Shown in pieces: positions 10,713 to 55,949 of a stretch of 59,134 bases of DNA. The stretch lies in the IMG/VR virus record IMGVR_UViG_3300035698_007197, positions 1-59,134 of that record, one strand, 5' to 3'. The notes below the pieces were generated by a model. The model searched no databases. It saw nothing but the letters and a program-made list of their open reading frames with translations, and was not told the DNA's origin. The stretch comes from a virus. Positions within the stretch are counted from its first letter, which is position 1, and each line of letters opens with the position of its first letter. A program made the translations under genes and the position numbers.

Positions 10713-10895
10713 ATGCTCGAGTTTCTCATCGGTCGAGTCGAGGCTATGATCGCCACGCTTGATCTTTCTAAAGGGACAAAGGATCCCATCACCCACGTCC
10801 GTTCTGAGTTGGATCGGACGTCGGATGGTGGGGTCTTCCAGCTAACGGTGAACAATCGCCGTTATCTCATAAGCGTAGAGGAGTGTAATGACTAA
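10713..10895 (+). CDS. Small hypothetical protein
   Basis: The protein has 60 aa with SD AGGAGGG. Helical first half, then a short beta pattern (V-F-Q-L-T-V-N-N-R-R-Y-L-I). Its stop overlaps the thyX start (TAATG), so it is co-translated with thyX. The function is unknown. Confidence 0.65.
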   Translation: MLEFLIGRVEAMIATLDLSKGTKDPITHVRSELDRTSDGGVFQLTVNNRRYLISVEECND

Positions 10896-11734
10896 TGCAA
10901 GCTAAGATCATATTGGATAGCGTGAGCCATGACGGCATACGCCTTACCACCTTTCACCTTCGATACTGGCGATCCATCCACGCCGAGCTGATGACCCATC
11001 GGGACTTCAGTCGAAACGCCCGCTCGAGCCGAGCAGTTCCCAGCAAGATCTTGCTAACCGAGCCGATCTTCATTCCCACCTTCGGGATGAACCAGCCCGG
11101 GATGCAGGCTTCCGACGAAGAAGTGTTCCCCGGTTTACTTGAGCGATGGGAGAAGGAGTGGGGGGAGCTAGCGGAGATTACTCGTTCCTATGTCAAGAAG
11201 TGGCAGGCTGACGGGATGCACAAGCAGTGGGCAAATCGGCCGCTCGAGTGGTTCGGTTGGATCGACGTGCTGGTGTCCTCTACGCGGTACGAGAACTTCT
11301 GGGCTCTTCGAGTCAGCGAGTATGCTCAGCCTGAGTTTCTTGATCTCGCAACCGCCATGCAAAAGCTTATGCTTCAGAGCGATCCTCAACTATTGAGACC
11401 GGGCGAGTGGCACCTGCCCTACATTCAGCAGGAAGGGCTCATCACCTATGGACTCGAGGTGTGCAAGATGCTGTCCGCGGCGCGATGCGCTCGATTGAGC
11501 TACAAGCCTTTCGATGGATCTGACAGCCTTCAAGCAGAACGTGATCGATACGAACGCCTAGTCGTGTCGCGTCCTGTTCATGCGTCACCTGTGGAACACC
11601 AGGCGACTCCTGACACAGGAATGAAGCACGTTCGTCCTCCCTATCGTATCGACTGGAACAATCCTGAGCAACATGGGAACTTTCATGGTTGGATCCAGAA
11701 CCGAAAGTTAATCCCCAATGAGGTGGTGCGATGA
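10895..11734 (+). CDS. thyX: Flavin-dependent thymidylate synthase ThyX
   Basis: The protein has 279 aa. ThyX makes dTMP from dUMP using methylene-tetrahydrofolate, NADPH and FAD. Residues 34-46 (T-H-R-D-F-S-R-N-A-R-S-S-R) are a phage variant of the ThyX signature (RHRxxSxNxxSxR), and A-S-P-V-E-H-Q-A-T-P near residue 230 is the second conserved block. The length fits phage ThyX. Because dTMP synthesis is covered here, the two ThyA-fold proteins at 52811-54492 probably do something else. It is coupled to small genes on both sides and a MazG-like enzyme lies shortly downstream. Confidence 0.9.
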   Translation: MQAKIILDSVSHDGIRLTTFHLRYWRSIHAELMTHRDFSRNARSSRAVPSKILLTEPIFIPTFGMNQPGMQASDEEVFPGLLERWEKEWGELAEITRSYVKKWQADGMHKQWANRPLEWFGWIDVLVSSTRYENFWALRVSEYAQPEFLDLATAMQKLMLQSDPQLLRPGEWHLPYIQQEGLITYGLEVCKMLSAARCARLSYKPFDGSDSLQAERDRYERLVVSRPVHASPVEHQATPDTGMKHVRPPYRIDWNNPEQHGNFHGWIQNRKLIPNEVVR

Positions 11735-18476: not shown

Positions 18477-18505
18477 GCCGTCGGGGGAAACCTCGGCGGC
18501 TTTTT
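18477..18505 (+). terminator. Rho-independent terminator
   Basis: A 10-bp stem, GCCGTCGGGG (18477-18486) with CCTCGGCGGC (18491-18500), GAAA tetraloop, then TTTTT (18501-18505). Classic intrinsic terminator for the gene at 17969. It ends exactly at the stop codon of the convergent gene. Confidence 0.9.
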
Positions 18506-19017
18506 CATAGCTTGGCCCAGTGAGGTGGTTTACGCCTCGTCCATTTGGGAGCTCGTTTATCGTCCGGCCATCTGCTGTTAAGGTAGGTCTTGTAAGCCTC
18601 AAACGTCGGTAGGTGACTGAAGTCAAGACCAAGCTTCTTGTGCCTAGCGCCGTTGTAGAAGTCGTCCTCCTCCATCTTCGGGGTAAACATGGTCAGGTAA
18701 GGCCATCGAAAAGTAAGACCTTCAAGCACAAGATGACAGGCATGCTTTCTTCCTCGTCGGTATATTATCTCCTCACCATAAGCAATACCCAGAGCATAGA
18801 GCCATCGAATGGGATTAAGGTTTTGATGATCGGATGCCCATTTTGTTATGGGATGGTTGACGTGACAGCTTCGATAAGGGGTAGCCTGCTCACCGCTTTG
18901 CTCATTGATGACTGTGCAGATTATTTGGGCGGTTTCCAGTATCATCTTGTTCAGTCGCTTATCATCCAGAGCCCTAGCGCATATTCGCGGGTGACGTGAT
19001 ACGGTAAAGATATTCAT
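18505..19017 (-). CDS. Pyr_excise-like (pyrimidine dimer glycosylase-like) protein
   Basis: The protein has 170 aa. The N-terminus (P-R-I-C-A-R-A-L-D-D-K-R-L-N-K-M-I-L-E-T) and the block N-H-P-I-T-K-W-A, later R-W-L-Y-A-L-G, match a phage family commonly annotated as Pyr_excise, related to T4 endonuclease V, which cuts DNA at UV-induced pyrimidine dimers. Enzymatic activity in this family is often untested, so the DNA-repair role is provisional. The stop of the preceding gene overlaps its start. Confidence 0.6.
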   Translation of the reverse strand: MNIFTVSRHPRICARALDDKRLNKMILETAQIICTVINEQSGEQATPYRSCHVNHPITKWASDHQNLNPIRWLYALGIAYGEEIIYRRGRKHACHLVLEGLTFRWPYLTMFTPKMEEDDFYNGARHKKLGLDFSHLPTFEAYKTYLNSRWPDDKRAPKWTRRKPPHWAKL

Positions 19018-42125: not shown

Positions 42126-42437
42126 ATGAATTGGATACAAAGGTTCAAAGACAAGTTCCTCGATGATTGCCGCCACTGGTATAAGCTTTGGTCATCTTGG
42201 TTGGCGATCCTGTGGGGAGTTATCGTTACCATCTTCTGGAATGACCCGACAATGCTTGGCCAGTTGGTAAATGTCTTACCCCAAGAGGCTAGGACCTTGT
42301 TGTCCCCTCTCGTTCTGGGGCTGGTCGCGGCATTGCCGATCATTGTCCGATTGCTGAAACAGCAGAAGCTGATGGATGCGATCAAGTCTGACGGTCTCGA
42401 GCTCGACGAGGAGCCCCGAGATAAAGAGGTCCGGTAG
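42126..42437 (+). CDS. Putative holin
   Basis: The protein has 103 aa and starts two bases after the endolysin stop. Two hydrophobic segments (residues about 26-42 and 58-76) and charged ends (R-F-K-D-K-F at the start, D-E-E-P-R-D-K at the end) fit a class II holin. Placement next to the endolysin supports this. Its 3' end overlaps the convergent J-domain gene by 56 bases. Confidence 0.75.
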   Translation: MNWIQRFKDKFLDDCRHWYKLWSSWLAILWGVIVTIFWNDPTMLGQLVNVLPQEARTLLSPLVLGLVAALPIIVRLLKQQKLMDAIKSDGLELDEEPRDKEVR

Positions 42438-43044
42438 CACGGGCAGTGGGTCCTCGGCTTTGTCCTTCCGGTCGAGGGCCCACTTCAAACTCATAGTCCC
42501 CCATTCGCTTCTCTGCCTCCCTTGAGATATCCAGTGCATTCTCCTGAGCACGGATCTGGAACTCAAGGCTTTCCACCTGACCATCGAGATACTCGAGGAT
42601 GACGTTCTTCCCATCCCCCTTTTTCTTGACTCTCTTTCTTACCATCAGGGTTTTATAGAGTTGCTCATTAAGACTCTTGATATTGGCCTTTACTTGCCGA
42701 CGACCCGTCTTAAGCATCTTGGCCATGACCACAGGGAAGTTCACGTTACTAACGTCCTCTCCTCCATTCATCACTGAGCTGAATAGCTGAATGATCGTCC
42801 GCTCGATCTCCGCCTCTGTGGTCTTGTAGGCATCGTTAGCACTACCCGTCTCATCATATCGCTTCCGACGTTCCGGGTCTTTCAAGATGCCATAAGCGTC
42901 TTGGACTTCCTGAAGCTTACGAGACGCCTCGGGGTCTTCTTTGTTCTTGTCGGGATGGTAGTCCTTTGACAAGCTCCGGTAGGCTGACTTGATGTCAGAT
43001 ATCGAAGCATCGGGTTCTACCCCGAGGATCTCGTAGGGGTTCAT
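42382..43044 (-). CDS. J-domain (DnaJ-like) protein
   Basis: The protein has 220 aa. Residues 1-65 are a J-domain: N-P-Y-E-I-L-G-V, D-I-K-S-A-Y-R, and the essential H-P-D-K, then G-I-L-K-D-P-E-R-R. The J-domain stimulates Hsp70 ATPase. No Gly/Phe or zinc regions follow; instead there is a helical domain (residues 90-180) and a Pro/Arg-rich tail. A phage J-protein may recruit host DnaK for replication or assembly. It lies last in the minus-strand unit with the spanins. Confidence 0.85.
   Translation of the reverse strand: MNPYEILGVEPDASISDIKSAYRSLSKDYHPDKNKEDPEASRKLQEVQDAYGILKDPERRKRYDETGSANDAYKTTEAEIERTIIQLFSSVMNGGEDVSNVNFPVVMAKMLKTGRRQVKANIKSLNEQLYKTLMVRKRVKKKGDGKNVILEYLDGQVESLEFQIRAQENALDISREAEKRMGDYEFEVGPRPEGQSRGPTARATGPLYLGAPRRARDRQT
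42445..42485. terminator. Long hairpin between convergent operons
   Basis: AGTGGGTCCTCG (42445-42456) pairs with CGAGGGCCCACT (42473-42484), 12 bp with one G-T pair, directly after the holin stop. It lies inside the end of the J-domain gene. No U-tract on either strand; a role in stopping late read-through is likely but unproven. Confidence 0.5.
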
Positions 43045-48491: not shown

Positions 48492-49649
48492 TTAATCCTC
48501 AGCGCGTTCTTTGTCATCACGCTTGTGGCTGAGATCCTCAGTCTGGTATTCGCGCTTCAAGATCCATTCCAGGTCGGACCCTGTAGCCTCGGCTTTACAC
48601 AGGGGTTGGAAGTCACACCAACTGCAATGGCGGTCGATGTTCTGGTCCTTCTTAGTGCCGTAACCGTCAGCGATCTCTTTTGCGGTGTCTACGAAGTCAT
48701 CCCAGATATTATCCACGATCCGAGGCTTGACTGGACTGTAGATACGGATGAACCTATTTCGGCGGTTAGCCTTGGAGTCCGCGAGGATCTTCTTATATGC
48801 AGCGTCTGATTTCTTTAGACCCTCTTCCTTGCGCCAAGCCCTTACTCTTGTTGGCAGGGTATCCATTTTTCTCGTGGAGATCTTACCCGTGGGAGTTAGT
48901 TCGCCCGGGACGTTGCACGGCTTGCTGCTGATATAATCCCACAGGATGCCATCGATTGCCTTGAAGCCCATCTCCTCGAGAGCACGAAAATAGACTGCTG
49001 CCTGAACGGACCTCCATCGCTCATCCTCAGAAGGCATCCTGCTAAATGACTTGTGCTCTACAAGCCAACGCATCTTCTTGGCCTTAGCTACAGCATCGAT
49101 CTTGCCCGTGAACCATATGTTCTTTTCCAGCTCTATGCGGAACTCATGCTCAGACCTTCGACCATCATGCTTGATAGGCTTCAGACTACCCTCGTAGTGA
49201 TCGAAGTAATCTTCCATGATATAGCCGATGTCTTCGACGATCTTGCCATACATTTCTATCTGCTTACGAAACAGCTTCTTGTTATCAAGCTCCACCTTTC
49301 GGAGGTGCTCCCGCCAATCCTCACCTTCGAGCTGAGACTCTATGATCTCATGGATGATGCTACCAAAGGTCAGCGGTCGGGACTTAACTTTCTTCTGGAT
49401 GCCGAGCACAAACTTGTTATGGAAGGCTCGCCGACATCGCCGGTAGGTCTTCACCTTCGACTGACTGATGTTGATGGTACCATCCGCTAGCAGGATCGTG
49501 CTATGGTCATGCGCCGGCGCTTCACCTTTCTTGAGCTTAGGCCCTCCGTTATGTCCTATGCCGACTGCTTGACACGCTTCTTCCGTCGGGGTGAGCGAGC
49601 TTTTCTTCCTTCTCGCTTTTCTACGATCTTCAATTGTTCTTTTAGCCAT
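48492..49649 (-). CDS. PD-(D/E)XK (Cas4/RecB-like) nuclease
   Basis: The protein has 385 aa from ATG 49649 (AAGGA upstream); the frame is open further into polA but that part is rejected. Residues 25-35 (G-I-G-H-N-G-G-P) are a motif frequent in alphaproteobacterial phages. The nuclease core has T-F-G-S-I-I-H-E-I-I, D-A-V-A-K-A and V-E-H-K-S (PD-ExK type), and ends with a Cys cluster, C-S-W-C-D-F-Q-P-L-C, typical of the 4Fe-4S site of Cas4/AddB-like enzymes. It would process DNA ends for the Sak4-like recombinase. Confidence 0.82.
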   Translation of the reverse strand: MAKRTIEDRRKARRKKSSLTPTEEACQAVGIGHNGGPKLKKGEAPAHDHSTILLADGTINISQSKVKTYRRCRRAFHNKFVLGIQKKVKSRPLTFGSIIHEIIESQLEGEDWREHLRKVELDNKKLFRKQIEMYGKIVEDIGYIMEDYFDHYEGSLKPIKHDGRRSEHEFRIELEKNIWFTGKIDAVAKAKKMRWLVEHKSFSRMPSEDERWRSVQAAVYFRALEEMGFKAIDGILWDYISSKPCNVPGELTPTGKISTRKMDTLPTRVRAWRKEEGLKKSDAAYKKILADSKANRRNRFIRIYSPVKPRIVDNIWDDFVDTAKEIADGYGTKKDQNIDRHCSWCDFQPLCKAEATGSDLEWILKREYQTEDLSHKRDDKERAED

Positions 49650-52114
49650 GTCTTCAAATCCTTTCCTTGTCCCCATGCACCAATTCCCGCATCAGCTTCG
49701 ATGGGGACACTCATTTCAATCTCAAAGTCATCAAGCAGCTCAGGGTGAGACATGATCTCTAGCCCGCGGTTGTGAACGTGCTCGACCATATCGTTACGAA
49801 CCTCTAGGAGCACAGCGTCATGCACTGTTCCTACAAGCCTAAACCAAGGTCTCCTGAACTCCTTCCGCATTTGTAACGCAGCCATAAGGTTAAGCTCATT
49901 AGCGAAGCTCTGAACAGGAGAATTGATTGCCTGCCGCTGTGCCTCCCGTCGTTCGGGACTATCTCGATTTCCCATCGCTGCCGGGAGCCGGCGCTTGCGC
50001 CCAGATAGAGACCGGACGTATCCATTGACCTGAGCAAATCTACGTTGCTTATTATGCCAGTTTGGGAAACCCGGATAAAGCTCGAAGAATGCTTCACGGC
50101 TTTGCTGTGCTTCCTCATCAGTCACCTCCACCCCATAGTTATCTCGAGCATATATCTTAAACTTCTTCCACCACATTCCGTAGAGATAGCCGAAGTTAAT
50201 GGCCTTCGCCTTCTTACGAACCTCCTTCCACATTTTCATCAATTCGGTAGCGGCGTTACCGCCCATGTTGAGAATGTATTCAACAGCCTCACTATATCCC
50301 ATCTTCTTGTATTCTTTACCCTCCTGCTTATGATGCAGTTTGACAGTTTTCTTTATCTCCTTGGCATAACCGGCGCCACGTTCAATTTCTCGAATTGCAG
50401 TTTGCCAGTGAGGGTCACCGCCTTCGTGGAACACTCCAAGGAGGTTATGCTCATCTGCAAGTTCGGCGGCAATGCGCAGCTCAATCTGGCTGAGATCCAT
50501 CTCAACCAACGTCCATCCCTCAGGAGCTGTAATAAGACTTCTGATGCGAGGATCTCGGGGGACTTGTTGGAGATTGGGATGCTCACAAGAGAGGCGGCCG
50601 GTAACAGTACCATGCAGTTTGAATACCGGATGAAGCCTCCCTTCCCGATCAAGGTAAGGACGCCATCCCTCAATGAAGCCGCTGAGTTGTTTCTGTGCAG
50701 CTCTAAACCGGAGAAGGTCGCCGACCATGGGATGGTCAATCCTGAGGAGGACTGACTCGCTTGTGCTGTTTGCGCCACTTTTTGTTTTCTCCACTACGGG
50801 GATCTTCAGCACCTCGAACAGTAGGTGACCCAACTGCTTAGGCGATCCCCAGTTTATCTTCTCAGTCTTCTTATCGACCAGGGTTGCCTTAGCCCCCCAC
50901 TTCTCAAGCTTCTCCTGAGCGTCAGCTAACTCACCCCGAAGGTAAGCCTCAGCATCGTCCATCTTGTCAAGGTCAATGAAGACACCTCGATGCTCAGCCT
51001 CGATGAACATTTGGATGCAGGGAACCATGATAAGATCGTGGACCCGTTTTACATCATGGTCTTCTTCCAACATCTTCTTGAGGATGAACCTAAGTTTCCG
51101 GGTATAGAAAACGTCATGCGCGGCATACTTGGCATTCTTCTGAGACCACTCCGTTTTTACACCGCCTTCAACGTCCCAATCGGGAACACCCAAGAATTTC
51201 TGTGCAAGATACTTGAGACCGTGTCTATCGTTCTCGTCTACTAGGTAGTGAGCGAGCATGGTATCGAAGTCGACTCGCCACTTAACCTGGAAACGCTCGA
51301 GCATCCACAGTGCGTCGAACTTACCATTATGGAAGACGTTGAAGCACTTCTTTAATTTGCGGGTGACGAGGTGGACAATCTTGGTCAGCTCGGCGTCAGA
51401 CCATATGCCGGCGGTTTCCATGGGGACCACCCATTGACGCTTACGACAGCCGAACTGCATAGCCACGACACGGGGTTGATTACCATTATGGGTTGACTTG
51501 TGTTGCTTGATCGCTTCCTGGGAGGCAGTACCGTCAGCCACCAGATCATCCAGCGCCGTGGTGAACGGGTATAATCGAGTGCACTCGAGATCAGTTGCTA
51601 CGGTGCCCCTGAGATCCTTGAGCATCGCCTTCACTTTGTCCCACGTATCGACAATCTCGAACTCGAGTTCCTTCTCCTCCGGTATGCCCCCGAACTCCCG
51701 ACACTCCCTCAACCTGTGGGCATCAGCCTCGATGGTATCGATCCTGCGCTCATCATGTAGTGCGATGTTGGGATGCAGCATGGGGAGGATCACTCGACCC
51801 TCATGCGTGATGGGTTTACCTCGAAGCTTGGTGATACCCTGTTTCTCTAGTACCGCCTGACAAGCGTTGTTCCCCAAGAGGACAATGTATTTGGGGTCTC
51901 TTCGATTGATCTTCTTTAAGACCCTCTCTCGCTCATGCTTTACCATGGTCTTGGTGATATTCTTTCCTTCGGGGGGAGCCTTCCTGAGGACGTTAATCCA
52001 CCGAATATCCTCGCTCTCAATCCCAGCCTCGTTCAAGGCGTCCATGAAGATAGACTGAGCTCGGGGGTTAATGTCGGGATGCTCACCGACTATCAAGATA
52101 TCAGACTTGGACAT
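49556..52114 (-). CDS. Family A DNA polymerase with N-terminal UDG-like domain
   Basis: The protein has 852 aa. Residues 1-140 resemble a family 4/5 uracil-DNA glycosylase (I-L-I-V-G-E-H-P, W-I-N-V-L-R-K-A, L-L-G-N-N-A-C, and M-L-H-P-N), but the usual catalytic acidic residue after G-E-x-P-G is altered, so it may only bind DNA. Residues about 155-360 are a 3'-5' exonuclease (V-A-T-D-L-E near 172; N-G-K-F-D; Y-A-A-H-D). Residues about 450-835 are the polymerase: motif A M-D-L-S-Q-I-E-L-R, motif B K-A-I-N-F-G-Y-L-Y-G, motif C V-H-D-A. The fusion is also known from SPO1-type phages. It replicates the phage genome. Confidence 0.92.
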   Translation of the reverse strand: MSKSDILIVGEHPDINPRAQSIFMDALNEAGIESEDIRWINVLRKAPPEGKNITKTMVKHERERVLKKINRRDPKYIVLLGNNACQAVLEKQGITKLRGKPITHEGRVILPMLHPNIALHDERRIDTIEADAHRLRECREFGGIPEEKELEFEIVDTWDKVKAMLKDLRGTVATDLECTRLYPFTTALDDLVADGTASQEAIKQHKSTHNGNQPRVVAMQFGCRKRQWVVPMETAGIWSDAELTKIVHLVTRKLKKCFNVFHNGKFDALWMLERFQVKWRVDFDTMLAHYLVDENDRHGLKYLAQKFLGVPDWDVEGGVKTEWSQKNAKYAAHDVFYTRKLRFILKKMLEEDHDVKRVHDLIMVPCIQMFIEAEHRGVFIDLDKMDDAEAYLRGELADAQEKLEKWGAKATLVDKKTEKINWGSPKQLGHLLFEVLKIPVVEKTKSGANSTSESVLLRIDHPMVGDLLRFRAAQKQLSGFIEGWRPYLDREGRLHPVFKLHGTVTGRLSCEHPNLQQVPRDPRIRSLITAPEGWTLVEMDLSQIELRIAAELADEHNLLGVFHEGGDPHWQTAIREIERGAGYAKEIKKTVKLHHKQEGKEYKKMGYSEAVEYILNMGGNAATELMKMWKEVRKKAKAINFGYLYGMWWKKFKIYARDNYGVEVTDEEAQQSREAFFELYPGFPNWHNKQRRFAQVNGYVRSLSGRKRRLPAAMGNRDSPERREAQRQAINSPVQSFANELNLMAALQMRKEFRRPWFRLVGTVHDAVLLEVRNDMVEHVHNRGLEIMSHPELLDDFEIEMSVPIEADAGIGAWGQGKDLKTWLKEQLKIVEKREGRKARSPRRKKRVKQSA

Positions 52115-52638
52115 TAAATCACTTCAACCACTTCGCGTGAGAAATACTCGACAATATAACCTGCGGGCGTCACTTCGTAAATACCCGTAACTCTCTGGAA
52201 TACTTCCGAGGTTCCCTGACCCAGTCGAGGGTCCGGGTAAGGTCGAGAGAACATTCCCAGGTGCTGGGTCGAGCGGTAGGGTATCTCAAATAATATCCTC
52301 CCGATATGAAGATCGCTTTGCTGGATCACCAAGCTGCATAGCTCACAGGGGCTGTGGGTGACATAGAGGTCTACCTCGGTTCCAGCTTTTATTATGGATG
52401 ATGCCTTTCCCAGGGCATTACTCTCTGCGTGTAGAGAAGGACACTTCCCGGGAACCATACCGGGGCAATCGTTTCCCGCGCAGTGAGGCTCTCCCGCCGC
52501 CGCGCCGTTCCATCCTACGCTGATCGGGCTGTTCTCCATGACAACCAGTGCTCCGACGTTCAGGCGTGAACAGGTCGACCGCTTCGCCGCACTCCTTGCC
52601 ATTTCCATGAACATTGCTTCTCTGCTTATCCGTCCCAT
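52114..52638 (-). CDS. dCMP deaminase
   Basis: The protein has 174 aa. ATG 52638 has GGAGG upstream; the ATG at 52695 precedes the end of the upstream gene and is rejected. Zinc and catalytic residues are H-A-E (residues 70-72) and P-C-E-L-C (97-101); a second metal site may use C-A-G-N-D-C and C-P. The enzyme turns dCMP into dUMP, feeding dTMP synthesis by ThyX. Its overlap with polA (TAATG) shows it is part of the replication unit. Confidence 0.88.
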   Translation of the reverse strand: MGRISREAMFMEMARSAAKRSTCSRLNVGALVVMENSPISVGWNGAAAGEPHCAGNDCPGMVPGKCPSLHAESNALGKASSIIKAGTEVDLYVTHSPCELCSLVIQQSDLHIGRILFEIPYRSTQHLGMFSRPYPDPRLGQGTSEVFQRVTGIYEVTPAGYIVEYFSREVVEVI

Positions 52639-52814
52639 CGGTCTATCCTCCATTCTTCGATCCAGGGTTCGTGCATATTGCCGTCTTGTATCCAACTGAC
52701 CTGGTAGCTGGTGTTCTTGCCTCGGATCATTATAGCAAGCACCGTAGCTACGATAGCTTTACAGCCGTCAATGGTTACCTTGTCTCCGACATCATAGAGC
52801 GTCTCAATCCTCAT
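52626..52814 (-). CDS. Small beta-rich protein
   Basis: The protein has 62 aa. Y-D-V-G-D-K-V-T-I-D-G and alternating strands (A-T-V-L-A-I-M-I, Y-Q-V-S-W-I) resemble a KOW/SH3-like small barrel. It overlaps the TS-like gene by four bases and the deaminase by 13. The function is unknown; it could bind a neighbouring enzyme or nucleic acid. Confidence 0.65.
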   Translation of the reverse strand: MRIETLYDVGDKVTIDGCKAIVATVLAIMIRGKNTSYQVSWIQDGNMHEPWIEEWRIDRWDG

Positions 52815-53662
52815 CCTACTTTATCCCAGTCTGGGCGGAACAGGTGCATTGATCCGATCTGCATGATGAACTTACCCGGTCGAACGGCAGCCCAATCGGG
52901 GTTCCTGCTACGAACCCTCTCGAGCATCCACAGGTGGAGCCGAAGAGTCAGGTATAGGTCATTGCGGAAATGCTTGTATAGATCGCAACTACGGATATGG
53001 TAATTGATGTCGAGGCGTTCCTCGCGCATGAGGAAGTGGTAACCGATGGTGCAGGGTGCTCGCTTGTCACCTCCACCCGTATCCTCGGGAAACCATATGG
53101 GGAAGTAGGCTTGACGGGTGTAGGGATCGTCAGCAAGCTGGTCGGCTACATCGATTAGTTGGCCGTAGTCATACATGATGCCTCGGTTCGGCGTAGGCGG
53201 TGATCCTCGATTTTGATCGGAGAACCTACGTCGCCACTCCTGAGCATCCTCAGTCGGCGCCTCTACCTGCCCAGCGAACCTTGGCCAGTATCGTTCCATA
53301 TAGTTATGGTTGAACTTTCCTCGGTTATCCAGGAAGCCTTCCACTCCTGACCGAGATAGCTTCGCCTGCGACCAATTCCTCCACTCGGTTCCCGGGTTCA
53401 TCGGATAGCCGCTGACCCTCTCCTCAAAGTGGTCATCGGACCAAGGGAACTCAGCGCCGGTATCATCGCGGTAATGCTGTAGTTCTTCTGTGGGCAAATC
53501 AACCATGAAGGAGACATGGGTCATTTCCTTACTGGCCATTAGGGGGTTGTTAGCTATGCTCACACCTTGCCAACGCTTCGAGTGCACCAGAGGAGCATTA
53601 TGTATGTCTTCACACAGCTCCCGGTATACAGTATCGAAGCTGTCCATTTCTAGGGGTCTCAT
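52811..53662 (-). CDS. Thymidylate-synthase-fold enzyme, predicted dCMP-type (hydroxymethylase-like)
   Basis: The protein has 283 aa. The C-terminal half aligns with ThyA: D-P-Y-T-R-Q (phosphate Arg), R-A-P-C (C204, nucleophile), H-I-R-S-C-D (224-227, phosphate binding), and G-S-M-H-L-F (H273). Where E. coli ThyA has Asn177, which reads uracil, this protein has D235 in a gap-free stretch. In T4 dCMP hydroxymethylase the equivalent is also Asp and reads cytosine. ThyX (10895) already covers dTMP. A role making hydroxymethyl-dCMP or another C5-modified nucleotide is inferred. The N-terminal 150 residues diverge. Confidence 0.75.
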   Translation of the reverse strand: MRPLEMDSFDTVYRELCEDIHNAPLVHSKRWQGVSIANNPLMASKEMTHVSFMVDLPTEELQHYRDDTGAEFPWSDDHFEERVSGYPMNPGTEWRNWSQAKLSRSGVEGFLDNRGKFNHNYMERYWPRFAGQVEAPTEDAQEWRRRFSDQNRGSPPTPNRGIMYDYGQLIDVADQLADDPYTRQAYFPIWFPEDTGGGDKRAPCTIGYHFLMREERLDINYHIRSCDLYKHFRNDLYLTLRLHLWMLERVRSRNPDWAAVRPGKFIMQIGSMHLFRPDWDKVG

Positions 53663-54492
53663 TCATCTACTCCTTCAGGTTCTTGGTATTTGTTACGGTG
53701 ACCGGGGTGGTTATCCCGGAGATACTTGATGAGCTTCTTTCGCCGCTTACCCTTGATGCGCTTATCAGCATCCATCTTGACCCGAAGGGCTTGGGCGAAC
53801 TTAGCTATTCCCCGGTAGTGCTCTTCGCACAGGTATCGGGAAGACCATTTGATGATCCACTCCCAGAAATACTTATCCTTCTTTCTGATCCTTTCGAGCT
53901 CGGCGATAGGGTCATCCATATGGGGTATGGCAGTTACGAAATACTGCGGGTGGACGGTGATATTGGCAAAGTGGCAATTCATCCCTTCGAACTCCATACC
54001 ATCAAAGTTGAACCCGTCGAGAAGGACATCGCGGATGAACACCAAGTCGGCGGGGAACTTCTTGAGCAGCTCGGTGGTTCGATAGAAGACGTCGATAACA
54101 TACCGACCTTTCTTACCCCCCTTAATCTGCGTGATAACCACCGACTGTAAGCAAGGCCCCATGACACTAGCCCGCTTGGATTTCTTAGTTGGGTCATTCT
54201 TGAGCAAATGGTTGTAGCAGGTAAAGCCCACACTGCCGTAGGAAGTTTTCTTGCGTCGCTCATCCCACAGCTTGATCGCCATATCCTTGGACTCCTCGTG
54301 AAGGTATAGCCGCTTCAAGTGCGACCCCTTCGCCGAGGTGTATCCCGCATCCGCAAGAATGAGTGGGTCTTCATAGTCCCACAGGTCGTGAAAGGTTATC
54401 ATCCTCCCCGTTATGATCTTGCGGCAACCCGAAAAGAAGTCACCCTTTTTCCTGGAGAGGCGTAGAACCTCCTTGACCCACTCATCCTTCAT
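53659..54492 (-). CDS. Second thymidylate-synthase-fold protein, divergent
   Basis: The protein has 277 aa. It lies next to and shares the ThyA-like layout with the previous gene: M-G-P-C (C114), F-Y-R-T-T-E (138-141 in place of R-S-x-D) and D149 at the Asn177 position, N-C-H-F (H174). Conservation outside these is low. It may be a paralogue with different substrate or a partner subunit. TS pairs of this kind are uncommon in one phage. The basic C-terminus (K-R-I-K-G-K-R-R-K-K) could touch DNA. Start overlaps previous stop region by four bases. Confidence 0.65.
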   Translation of the reverse strand: MKDEWVKEVLRLSRKKGDFFSGCRKIITGRMITFHDLWDYEDPLILADAGYTSAKGSHLKRLYLHEESKDMAIKLWDERRKKTSYGSVGFTCYNHLLKNDPTKKSKRASVMGPCLQSVVITQIKGGKKGRYVIDVFYRTTELLKKFPADLVFIRDVLLDGFNFDGMEFEGMNCHFANITVHPQYFVTAIPHMDDPIAELERIRKKDKYFWEWIIKWSSRYLCEEHYRGIAKFAQALRVKMDADKRIKGKRRKKLIKYLRDNHPGHRNKYQEPEGVDE

Positions 54493-54495
54493 GGT

Positions 54496-55383
54496 CTAGG
54501 CCTCCAACTCTTCGGCGGGGGCCGTAAAGATCTCATCAAAGATAGCATTGTCCTGAACAAGGTCTCTGTGATCGGGAGCTTCCCAACCGGAAGGCTTCAC
54601 GATGTCATACTTGGGTTTACGGCCGCTATCCTCATGACCGTCAGTCGCCTGATCCTTTCGGACCTTCGCCATGTTGGCGGTGACAACCCGACGCCATGCC
54701 TCATTGAAGGCAGCCCGACCGAATTGGAGATCCGCCGTACCGAACAGGACCCAGATGGCATCGCACAGTGCATCGAGCTGGAGTTCCAAGCAATTGATGA
54801 TGTCGCGGCGATCCCGTCGCTCGACCGCATCCACCAGTTTGGGATATTCGTCTCGATACTCCTCGGTCTCCTCGGCATGAAACTTCTCGCGAAAATCGTG
54901 GAGATCCTGTGGAAGCATACGGGGTTTACCGAGATACTCCTGGCCGAACTTCGCATGGAACGCACTAACGTCACCCATATAGTCGGGGAAGTCATGATCT
55001 CGGAGGTGAAGCCCCTTGACGATCATATCTGCTTGGGCGGCGAGTACCTTCTCGACGTGGTGATCCCTCTTCTTGCCGGCAAACCTCGAGGCACTGATGA
55101 GCATAGTCCGGACATCGCCGGCTTGTTCCACGAGGAAGTGAAGTTCAGCTATGATCTCCTGCTCATCATCCTCTATCTGAATAGCCCGGTCCTCCAATTT
55201 CTCGTAAGGGGGTAAAGCGGTGAACCGACTATTCCACCTGTCCTTATGGGTCCAGCGCAGCTTTCCGTCTTCACCGCGGTAGGCAACGCCCGTGACCCAG
55301 TCGCCGGTGTCCGGGTGCTTTCCCGATTGAGGTTCCTCATAGGCGTATAGTCCGCCGTCGGCGTGGGTATGGGTAGGTTTCAT
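54496..55383 (-). CDS. DUF1653-like plus HisE/MazG-like pyrophosphohydrolase fusion
   Basis: The protein has 295 aa. Residues 10-55 (G-L-Y-A-Y-E-E-P, W-V-T-G-V-A-Y-R, R-F-T-A-L) resemble DUF1653. Residues 155-280 are a phosphoribosyl-ATP pyrophosphohydrolase-like (MazG superfamily) domain: E-E-T-E-E-Y and L-D-A-L-C-D-A-I-W-V-L-F-G-T-A, then A-N-M-A-K-V and K-P-S-G-W-E-A-P. Such enzymes hydrolyse dNTPs. In base-modifying phages a dCTPase removes normal dCTP, so dCTP is a plausible substrate next to the TS-like genes, but not proven. Confidence 0.75.
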   Translation of the reverse strand: MKPTHTHADGGLYAYEEPQSGKHPDTGDWVTGVAYRGEDGKLRWTHKDRWNSRFTALPPYEKLEDRAIQIEDDEQEIIAELHFLVEQAGDVRTMLISASRFAGKKRDHHVEKVLAAQADMIVKGLHLRDHDFPDYMGDVSAFHAKFGQEYLGKPRMLPQDLHDFREKFHAEETEEYRDEYPKLVDAVERRDRRDIINCLELQLDALCDAIWVLFGTADLQFGRAAFNEAWRRVVTANMAKVRKDQATDGHEDSGRKPKYDIVKPSGWEAPDHRDLVQDNAIFDEIFTAPAEELEA

Positions 55384-55883
55384 GCTTCATTCTCCAGGTT
55401 ATAGCAGTGGTGGAAATATACAGTAGCGGTAAGCTGATCCATGTCATCGCCAATGCGATAGACAAAGTGAGCATGCTGAGCAGCCCACAGTCGGTACTCC
55501 TTGAGAAGTTCCTGCTCATGCTCATCGAGCAATTGCCGGTGACGTTCGGTATCGTGATCCTTGAGTTCGTGCCCCTCGAAGCCGCGTGTGCCCGCGTCAC
55601 AATAAATAAAGGTGTGCCCCGCGTCATAGAAAATGGACTGGCGACCGAGAGTAATCGGGTCACCTTCTTTGCGAAACTTACCATATATTGAATTGGAGAT
55701 AACGGGATGACGAACGAAGAGCCGCTGCTCGAGTGTCTCATATCGATCAACTCGCTCGTTAATCTCATCATCACTCAGAGGTGGTCCTTCGCTTTCTTGG
55801 ACGATTAACGCCATATACTCGGCCATTTGTTGAGCGAGGGTGCTCTTGCCGCTGTTGTCCATTCCTTCGATAATAATAGCCAT
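55380..55883 (-). CDS. Deoxynucleoside monophosphate kinase-like
   Basis: The protein has 167 aa. ATG 55883 is downstream of the promoter start point and has CGGAG; upstream in-frame starts would be untranscribed. Residues 1-16 (A-I-I-I-E-G-M-D-N-S-G-K-S-T-L) are a Walker A of thymidylate-kinase/dNMP-kinase type. R-H-P-V-I-S and the D-A-G-H region look like substrate and LID parts. It would phosphorylate a (modified) dNMP. First gene of the long minus-strand unit and ATGA-coupled to the HisE-like gene. Confidence 0.75.
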   Translation of the reverse strand: MAIIIEGMDNSGKSTLAQQMAEYMALIVQESEGPPLSDDEINERVDRYETLEQRLFVRHPVISNSIYGKFRKEGDPITLGRQSIFYDAGHTFIYCDAGTRGFEGHELKDHDTERHRQLLDEHEQELLKEYRLWAAQHAHFVYRIGDDMDQLTATVYFHHCYNLENEA

Positions 55884-55896
55884 GGTTTGCTCCGTA

Positions 55897-55925
55897 TTGA
55901 CGACCGTGAAAACTTTTGACATAAT
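55897..55925 (+). promoter_or_regulatory. Plus-strand promoter overlapping the divergent minus promoter
   Basis: TTGACG (55897-55902), 17-bp spacer, CATAAT (55920-55925). Its -10 region is shared with the minus promoter's -10 (55921-55926), so both cannot be occupied at once. A short stem (CTGG/CCAG, about 55929-55943) lies at its predicted 5' end. Confidence 0.65.
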
Positions 55926-55949
55926 ACTCTGGTTTTTCGCCAGTGTCAA
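55921..55949 (-). promoter_or_regulatory. Minus-strand promoter of the nucleotide/replication unit
   Basis: On the minus strand TTGACA (55949-55944), 17-bp spacer, TATTAT (55926-55921), near consensus. It drives 55883 leftward through the replication genes. Confidence 0.8.

Follow-up and report, generated by a model that had tools for sequence, protein, structure and literature searches.

Two adjacent genes in the viral DNA analysed here encode proteins, A and B, of the thymidylate synthase (TS) superfamily, and we consider it fairly likely that both take part in modifying cytosine before replication, as TS-fold enzymes of a pathway that leaves a modified cytosine in the phage DNA. Since both proteins keep the residues expected to grip and to attack cytosine, the phage probably builds an altered cytosine into its DNA. 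B is named by no family database, and the A–B pair is recurrent in sequenced phages. The window, i.e. the whole stretch of DNA that was analysed, comprises 59,134 nt (IMG/VR record IMGVR_UViG_3300035698_007197, positions 1 to 59,134) and contains the following features:

10895-11734, plus strand: ThyX-like flavin-dependent thymidylate synthase, a separate dTMP source (Thy1 27.5 bits, cut-off 24.8)
49556-52114, minus strand: family A DNA polymerase with an N-terminal UDG-superfamily domain (phrog_17 1e-136; PF00476 1.4e-74; PF03167 5.7e-9)
52114-52695, minus strand: dCMP deaminase, supplying dUMP (phrog_174 3.4e-31; PF00383 1.6e-18)
52811-53662, minus strand: protein A, TS-superfamily enzyme, predicted dCMP-specific (phrog_160 1.4e-28; PF00303; AF2 model; 63 relatives)
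53659-54492, minus strand: protein B, unrecognised TS-fold protein (AF2 model; invariant columns in 52 relatives)
54496-55383, minus strand: MazG/HisE-like nucleotide pyrophosphohydrolase, candidate dCTPase (phrog_671 nucleotide pyrophosphohydrolase 1.5e-17)
55380-55949, minus strand: P-loop dNMP kinase-like protein (phrog_761 thymidylate kinase 6e-8)

The ORFs of A and B overlap by 4 bases, and that of the kinase-like protein starts with TTG at 55949, with an ATG at 55883. An earlier note on this DNA had described two adjacent ThyA-fold proteins with MazG-like and kinase-like genes directly upstream and a phage-encoded ThyX; the two ORFs lie where it placed them and both are predicted to adopt the TS fold, PHROGs confirmed the two upstream genes, and the ThyX call is supported by the Thy1 match, which is also seen weakly in a six-frame Pfam search. 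Pfam gave no match for the MazG-like ORF and sub-cut-off matches only for the kinase-like ORF. Among the left-arm ORFs, phrog_85 'thymidylate synthase' was matched at 9.8e-76, in output that carries no ORF name. The scanned parts of the window contained no glycosyltransferase and no other tailoring gene, and arabinose or other sugar genes were not seen.

Active-site residues of the two proteins

Protein A is a member of the TS superfamily, with fold, Cys nucleophile and phosphate Arg all present. In the ORF-level scan PF00303 reached 28.6 bits (cut-off 24.3), while the same model, run on all six frames of the window, missed A and found nothing. The AF2 model (pLDDT 94.7) matches TS, MilA and AfhB with a VIA Z of about 19, and A keeps most TS landmarks, the counterpart of His207 included. 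The nucleophile C204, the phosphate arginine R224 and the cytosine-reading D235 are found in 63/63 sequences, accompanied by R183 and H273, and at the two positions that separate deoxy from ribo substrates A has the deoxy types, R183 and S225 (PMC5175136). Family-specific residues of A are R201 (63/63), H119 (60/63), H231 and Q184, the latter invariant and located at the site of TS Arg127. Residues 262-264 of ThyA have no aligned counterpart in nearly all 63 A sequences, so the C-terminal tail is absent.

For protein B, Pfam gave no match and PHROGs returned families of unknown function only. The TS call of the earlier note thus went beyond the databases, and it is supported by the AlphaFold model (pLDDT 91.6), for which all PDB matches listed are TS-fold proteins with Z of 10 to 13, AfhB being the best fold match. 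The profile of B compared with those of A, ThyA and T4 gp42 gave borderline values (E 0.06 to 0.25), and searched against PDB sequences it found no TS; the TS-fold claim for B is therefore based on structure and invariant residues. Judged by this model, B is a member of the TS superfamily, combining the TS fold with a Cys nucleophile and a phosphate Arg. Only Y63, C114, R138 and D149 are invariant in 52/52 diverse B proteins (mean identity 19%), where C114, R138 and D149 represent the TS nucleophile, the phosphate arginine and the base-reading position, respectively. Beside the base-site Asp, counterparts of His207, Glu58, Trp80 and Tyr94 were considered, and in the column statistics of the 52 relatives no His, Glu or Trp column reached 75%; by this count neither conserved folate-site residues nor a conserved His207 counterpart are apparent. 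As far as their sequences tell, the two proteins are of unequal kind, A carrying most TS landmarks and B the Cys, Arg and Asp only.

In both proteins the Asp follows the phosphate Arg by exactly 11 residues without gaps, which is the spacing in E. coli ThyA (R166–N177) and in T4 gp42. The residues named in the earlier note, C204 and D235 in A and C114 and D149 in B, are present, with Asp at the Asn177 site. Since D235 is invariant in 63/63 and C114, R138 and D149 in 52/52 sequences, the match is more than chance. In characterised enzymes, a cytosine substrate is paired with Asp at the Asn177 site and a uracil substrate with Asn (PMC5175136; PMC6400193). The cytosine specificity of B is predicted from its three residues and from the alignment by spacing and secondary structure.

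Exchange of B and distribution of the cassette

Of 162 B loci, 159 also contain A, and the other three are truncated by contig ends. A without B occurs in 15 contigs. A homologue of DNA C5-methylases, identified by Pfam searches, is encoded in 9 of 12 A phages without B, compared to 0 of 38 with B, and by this swap B has been replaced at least twice. Because some A phages carry the C5-methylase homologue in place of B, it is probable that B is an enzyme in its own right and does more than complete A as a subunit; in the phages with the homologue, modification again seems directed at C5 of cytosine. We also weighed, and consider rather unlikely, an obligate heteromer in which A and B catalyse one TS-like reaction on dCMP and exchange phosphate-binding arginines between subunits, as the TS homodimer does. 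The adjacent, overlapping genes and the near-constant company of A would suit such an enzyme, as would the invariant Gln184 in place of Arg127, a residue acting across the TS dimer. However, A also occurs without B, B has been replaced at least twice and keeps its own invariant Cys, and the pairwise distances of A and B correlate at 0.60 (partial 0.17), no more than those of A with PolA, with B and PolA reaching 0.89. The distance correlations thus show none of the tight A–B coevolution that would point to a complex, and no natural A–B fusions were present among the ORFs.

The earlier note had considered the pair unusual, which did not hold: B is found in approximately 100 GenBank/RefSeq phage records (102 matches, RefSeq copies counted), where it is mostly labelled hypothetical and the adjoining A thymidylate synthase. 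In phages infecting Proteobacteria and Actinobacteria, among them Muddy, the genes for kinase, MazG, B, A, dCMP deaminase and PolA are conserved together as one block, in exactly this order in 64 of 96 loci. In Muddy, which grows on M. smegmatis mc2 155, B corresponds to gene 47; PMBT14 (P. fluorescens) and Polewnik (B. pondensis) are further carriers. A MazG-like gene takes the same place in 88 of these 96 loci and a kinase-like gene in 87, and dCMP deaminase and family A polymerase are present in 91 and 89, respectively. ThyX is also encoded in eight further loci beside the window, and Triscuit encodes a classical ThyA (Asn) beside A. With dCTPase-like, TS-fold and dNMP kinase-like homologues together in fixed order, the block could serve as a T4-like nucleotide-level cytosine replacement cassette, with the MazG-like and kinase-like proteins as its putative dCTPase and dNMP kinase.

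We propose a model in which the MazG-like enzyme would convert dCTP to dCMP, which A would bind. Asp235 would then read the cytosine and Cys204 attack C6, leading to addition of a substituent at C5, which could be hydroxymethyl, hydroxyl, methyl or another group. B, with Cys, Arg and Asp available for binding and activating a cytosine nucleotide, might carry out a further or different C5 step. Phosphorylation of the product by the dNMP kinase would be the first step towards the triphosphate, to be incorporated by the phage polymerase, and dCMP deaminase and ThyX would maintain the dTTP supply. Virion DNA would consequently be expected to contain a modified cytosine, which may shield it from host nucleases and probably confers resistance to bacterial defences. 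As a more tentative extension, possible but held with less than even confidence, B could constitute a new TS-fold branch that lost the folate site and retained the Cys for covalent attack and the Asp that reads cytosine. Together with A it would perform an undescribed cytosine modification in a widespread set of phages, where a DNA C5-methylase homologue can take the place of B.

Should A and B rewrite cytosine, about 100 phage records would stand for altered DNA, with consequences for escape from restriction and CRISPR, for the sequencing and engineering of carriers such as Muddy, and for the range of TS-fold chemistry. For the carrier phages we found no measured modified base in the literature; two Brevundimonas carriers belong to a set grouped according to EcoRI digests, in a paper that leaves the cutting of their DNA unstated (PMC10070969).

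Comparison with known cytosine- and uracil-modifying enzymes

Among PDB sequences, A is nearest to enzymes acting on dCMP or CMP, namely the flavin-linked dCMP hydroxylase AfhB of phage HY126 (9iqu/9iqc, 2.3e-10) as best match, MilA (3e-8) and the N229D mutant of TS (6.5e-8); T4dCH matches at 7.6e-6. With AfhB and RB69 ORF048, A shares the Asp at the base site, and its C-terminus, as in ORF048, is short and follows closely on the His-x-Phe motif. In PMC13390438 a TS-superfamily 5-hodCMP synthase is reported, and A could be a flavin-dependent dCMP 5-hydroxylase of this type and the phage base derive from 5-hydroxycytosine instead of 5-hydroxymethylcytosine, a reading to which AfhB as best fold match of B also contributes. 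We nevertheless regard it as quite unlikely, since inspection of the RB69 ORF048 sequence revealed Thr and Glu where A has His119 and Arg201, MilA and the TS mutant score nearly as well against A, and by fold TS and MilA equal AfhB (VIA Z 18.8). Furthermore, in the AfhB type one enzyme acts by itself, and in RB69 it has arabinose genes in its neighbourhood; no such sugar genes were seen here. The CMP hydroxymethylase MilA resembles A in the TS fold, the Asp for cytosine and the strength of the match, but differs in its ribo preference, which is mediated by Lys133/Ala176, in place of which A has the deoxy-type Arg/Ser pair (PMC5175136).

ThyA shares with both proteins the fold, the Cys and Arg166, and with A only His207. 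It differs in Asn177, which is Asp in A and B, in the tail and Arg127, lost or replaced by Gln in A, and in the folate site, of which B shares no conserved residue. Ordinary nucleotide metabolism, with A as dUMP methylase, B as its degenerate relative and unmodified DNA, agrees with the annotation of A as thymidylate synthase and with kinase, MazG and deaminase, which also suit plain dTTP supply, but is improbable in view of the invariant Asp in both proteins, the co-encoded ThyX or ThyA in several phages, the missing tail of A and the invariant Cys of B, unlike a dead copy. A was rejected as plain thymidylate synthase on the Asp and on ThyX/ThyA alongside, and it has neither the Asn177 nor the cofactor-covering C-terminal tail by which ThyA is defined; a dUMP hydroxymethylase was rejected since the characterised dUH carries Asn (PMC5175136).

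The favoured reading, a pre-replicative cytosine-modification pathway, comes closest in its organization to the hmC pathway of T4, in which a TS-fold enzyme likewise modifies the nucleotide and genes of the dCTPase-like, dNMP kinase-like and dCMP deaminase types are also present. The T4-like dCMP hydroxymethylase implied by the earlier note fits only in part: Cys148 and Asp179 of gp42 have their counterparts in C204 and D235 of A, but the proposed T4dCH signature, Asp145 (Asp/Glu three before the Cys) together with Ser94 (Ser/Thr) (PMC6400193), is replaced by Arg201 and His119. A further deviates from gp42 by Gln for Arg127 and by a shorter C-terminus. No glucosyltransferase was seen here, and where T4 relies on one cytosine-type TS-fold protein, the phages described here have two or three.

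Two neighbouring thymidylate synthase-fold proteins

In the window, two neighbouring proteins of the thymidylate synthase (TS) fold, A and B, are encoded by ORFs sharing a 4-base overlap:

52811-53662, minus strand, protein A, 283 aa
53659-54492, minus strand, protein B, 277 aa

The residues highlighted in the earlier note (C204 and D235 in A, C114 and D149 in B) proved right on re-reading of both ORFs. A is a recognised TS-superfamily member, matching phrog_160 at 1.4e-28 and PF00303 at 28.6 bits (cut-off 24.3). A Pfam scan of B gave zero matches, and its relatives (n = 52) matched phrog_34294 (25/52) and phrog_13667 (20/52), both PHROGs without function. AlphaFold2 models, fed with alignments of viral relatives, were confident for both A (pLDDT 94.7, pTM 0.92) and B (pLDDT 91.6, pTM 0.89). 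All PDB matches listed for the B model have the TS fold, the top one being 9iqu/9iqc (Foldseek E 7e-6; VIA Z 13.1, rmsd 3.6 over 179), the structure of the phage dCMP hydroxylase AfhB with dCMP and FAD, followed by the CMP hydroxymethylase MilA (Z 12.5) and TS (about 11). Judged from model and invariant residues, B constitutes a new, so far unrecognised TS-fold family. The A model is about equally close to MilA, T4 gp42 dCMP hydroxymethylase, AfhB and TS (Foldseek E about 1e-12; VIA Z about 19), while its sequence profile ranks AfhB first in the PDB (2.3e-10), followed by MilA (3e-8), the L. casei TS N229D mutant (6.5e-8) and the T4 enzyme (7.6e-6).

Only Y63, C114, R138 and D149 are invariant in 52 B proteins (mean identity 19%), with Lys or Arg at position 55 in 52/52, and all His, Glu and Trp columns of this alignment stay below 75%. 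In the model, C114 starts a strand, R138 is part of the strand that follows and D149 of the helix after it, the same order as C146, R166 and N177 of ThyA. From this pattern of conservation we infer that B may remain able to bind a cytosine nucleotide and attack it, but would have lost the folate machinery.

Downstream of A, other loci encode a third paralogue of the TS type, shorter than A and B at about 180 aa (16 ORFs), which was not found in the window; it shares the invariant Tyr, Cys, Arg and Asp of B, the Asp at +11, and two scanned ORFs had no Pfam match. Examples are:

L006:6882-7391, third paralogue
L010:4914-5441, third paralogue
L020:2891-3523, third paralogue
L021:4768-5316, third paralogue

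Distribution of the pair and its gene block

The A-B pair is widespread. By tblastn, A was found in 148 phage records (E<=1e-3; remoter matches fall outside the A/B clade) and window-type B in 17, to which actinobacteriophage-type B (Muddy gp47) adds 85 further records, RefSeq copies being counted throughout. At every A/B-clade locus inspected, B lies just upstream of A, separated from it by no more than a few small ORFs, and is annotated mostly as hypothetical, in two records as 'pyrimidine hmase synthase', and in one lacking annotation, where the ORF was read. By profile, 159 of 181 fetched loci carry A and B, 18 A only (three of them outgroups) and 3 B only, all of which run into the contig end. 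Since these loci were selected for resembling A or B, a fair estimate comes from the viral loci retrieved with A, 65 of 80 of which have B close by. The constant pairing of B and a divergent A, in phages whose hosts span at least two bacterial phyla, is new; we found no description of the pair in the literature, as far as partial coverage reached.

The exact order kinase-MazG-B-A-dCMP deaminase-PolA occurs in 64 of 96 loci with sufficient flank (kinase in 87, MazG 88, B 86, deaminase 91). Across 84,980 prokaryote species (one genome each), A was found only 8 times, always in metagenome-assembled genomes (6/8 with B), and the family therefore looks viral; it probably belongs to virulent phages.

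A without B

Along their whole length, 15 A-only contigs contain no B, while the same profile recovers B in 14/14 A+B records. In a quick tree of A, A-only contigs form at least two separate groups nested within B carriers, which means that A can sometimes do without B. A PF00145 DNA C5-methylase homologue is present in 9/12 tested A-only contigs vs 0/38 A+B contigs (hypergeometric about 9e-8, hand-computed, ignoring kinship and with contigs possibly incomplete), and in several it occupies B's slot, directly upstream of A. This exchange of B for a C5-methylase homologue is likewise new. The pairwise distance correlation is modest for A-B (0.60; partial 0.17) compared with B-PolA (0.89; partial 0.72; 99 loci), which, together with the occurrence of A without B, weakly favours two enzymes over one heteromer.

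The divergence of B follows that of PolA far more closely than it follows that of A (99 loci). The B-less contigs with A and a divergent C5-methylase homologue, frequently right before A, are L068, L076, L078, L081, L084, L085, L092, L096, L102 and L185, the last known solely through a partly contaminated profile. Those homologues that were read carry P[EK]CGxFS, not PPCQxFS; that of L078 is fused to an N6/N4 methylase, and an intein that carries an endonuclease-like domain splits that of L092.

Proposed pathway and comparison with known enzymes

TS-fold enzymes in pre-replicative cytosine modification are already known from T4, Xp12 and RB69. In the window, the TS fold, its active-site residues and the conserved gene block stand beside a separate dTMP synthesis, by a ThyX-like flavin-dependent enzyme. 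In the pathway we propose, the MazG-like pyrophosphohydrolase would convert dCTP to dCMP, A would modify dCMP at C5, B may perform an additional or alternative C5 step, the dNMP kinase-like protein would phosphorylate the modified product and PolA, a family A DNA polymerase, would incorporate it. As the group added by A, hydroxymethyl is our leading candidate, though short of an even chance; a group other than hydroxyl or methyl comes second, hydroxyl is somewhat less likely and methyl unlikelier still. Phage DNAs whose cytosine is fully modified are resistant to most type II enzymes (PMC7653180). The single related laboratory observation located is the sorting of Brevundimonas isolates, two carriers included, by EcoRI patterns, the outcome for these two not being stated (PMC10070969).

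Further window genes are PolA itself (49556-52114), with an N-terminal uracil-DNA-glycosylase-superfamily domain (PF03167, 5.7e-9), a protein with an N-terminal DnaJ domain (42382-43044; PF00226, 1.4e-24) and a pyrimidine dimer DNA glycosylase-like protein (18505-19017; PF03013, 1.5e-6, above cut-off).

Invariant in 63 A proteins are, among others, C204, R224, R183, D235 and H273, equivalent to C146, R166, R126, N177 and H207 of E. coli ThyA. Asp at the N177 site accompanies cytosine substrates (PMC5175136; PMC6400193), and in R183 and S225 (the latter in 59/63) A agrees with the deoxy-specific enzymes of PMC5175136. At other positions A has residues peculiar to itself, namely Q184 for R127 of E. 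coli ThyA, R201 for L143, H119 for P92 and H231 for G173. The T4 enzyme has D145 and S94, the proposed dCMP hydroxymethylase signature (PMC6400193), where A has R201 and H119; A therefore fails this dCMP hydroxymethylase test, yet retains the cytosine-type Asp. RB69 ORF048, of the 5-hodCMP synthase type (PMC13390438), differs from A at the same two positions, with Glu at that of D145 and, from inspection of the NTFYG motif, Thr at that of S94.
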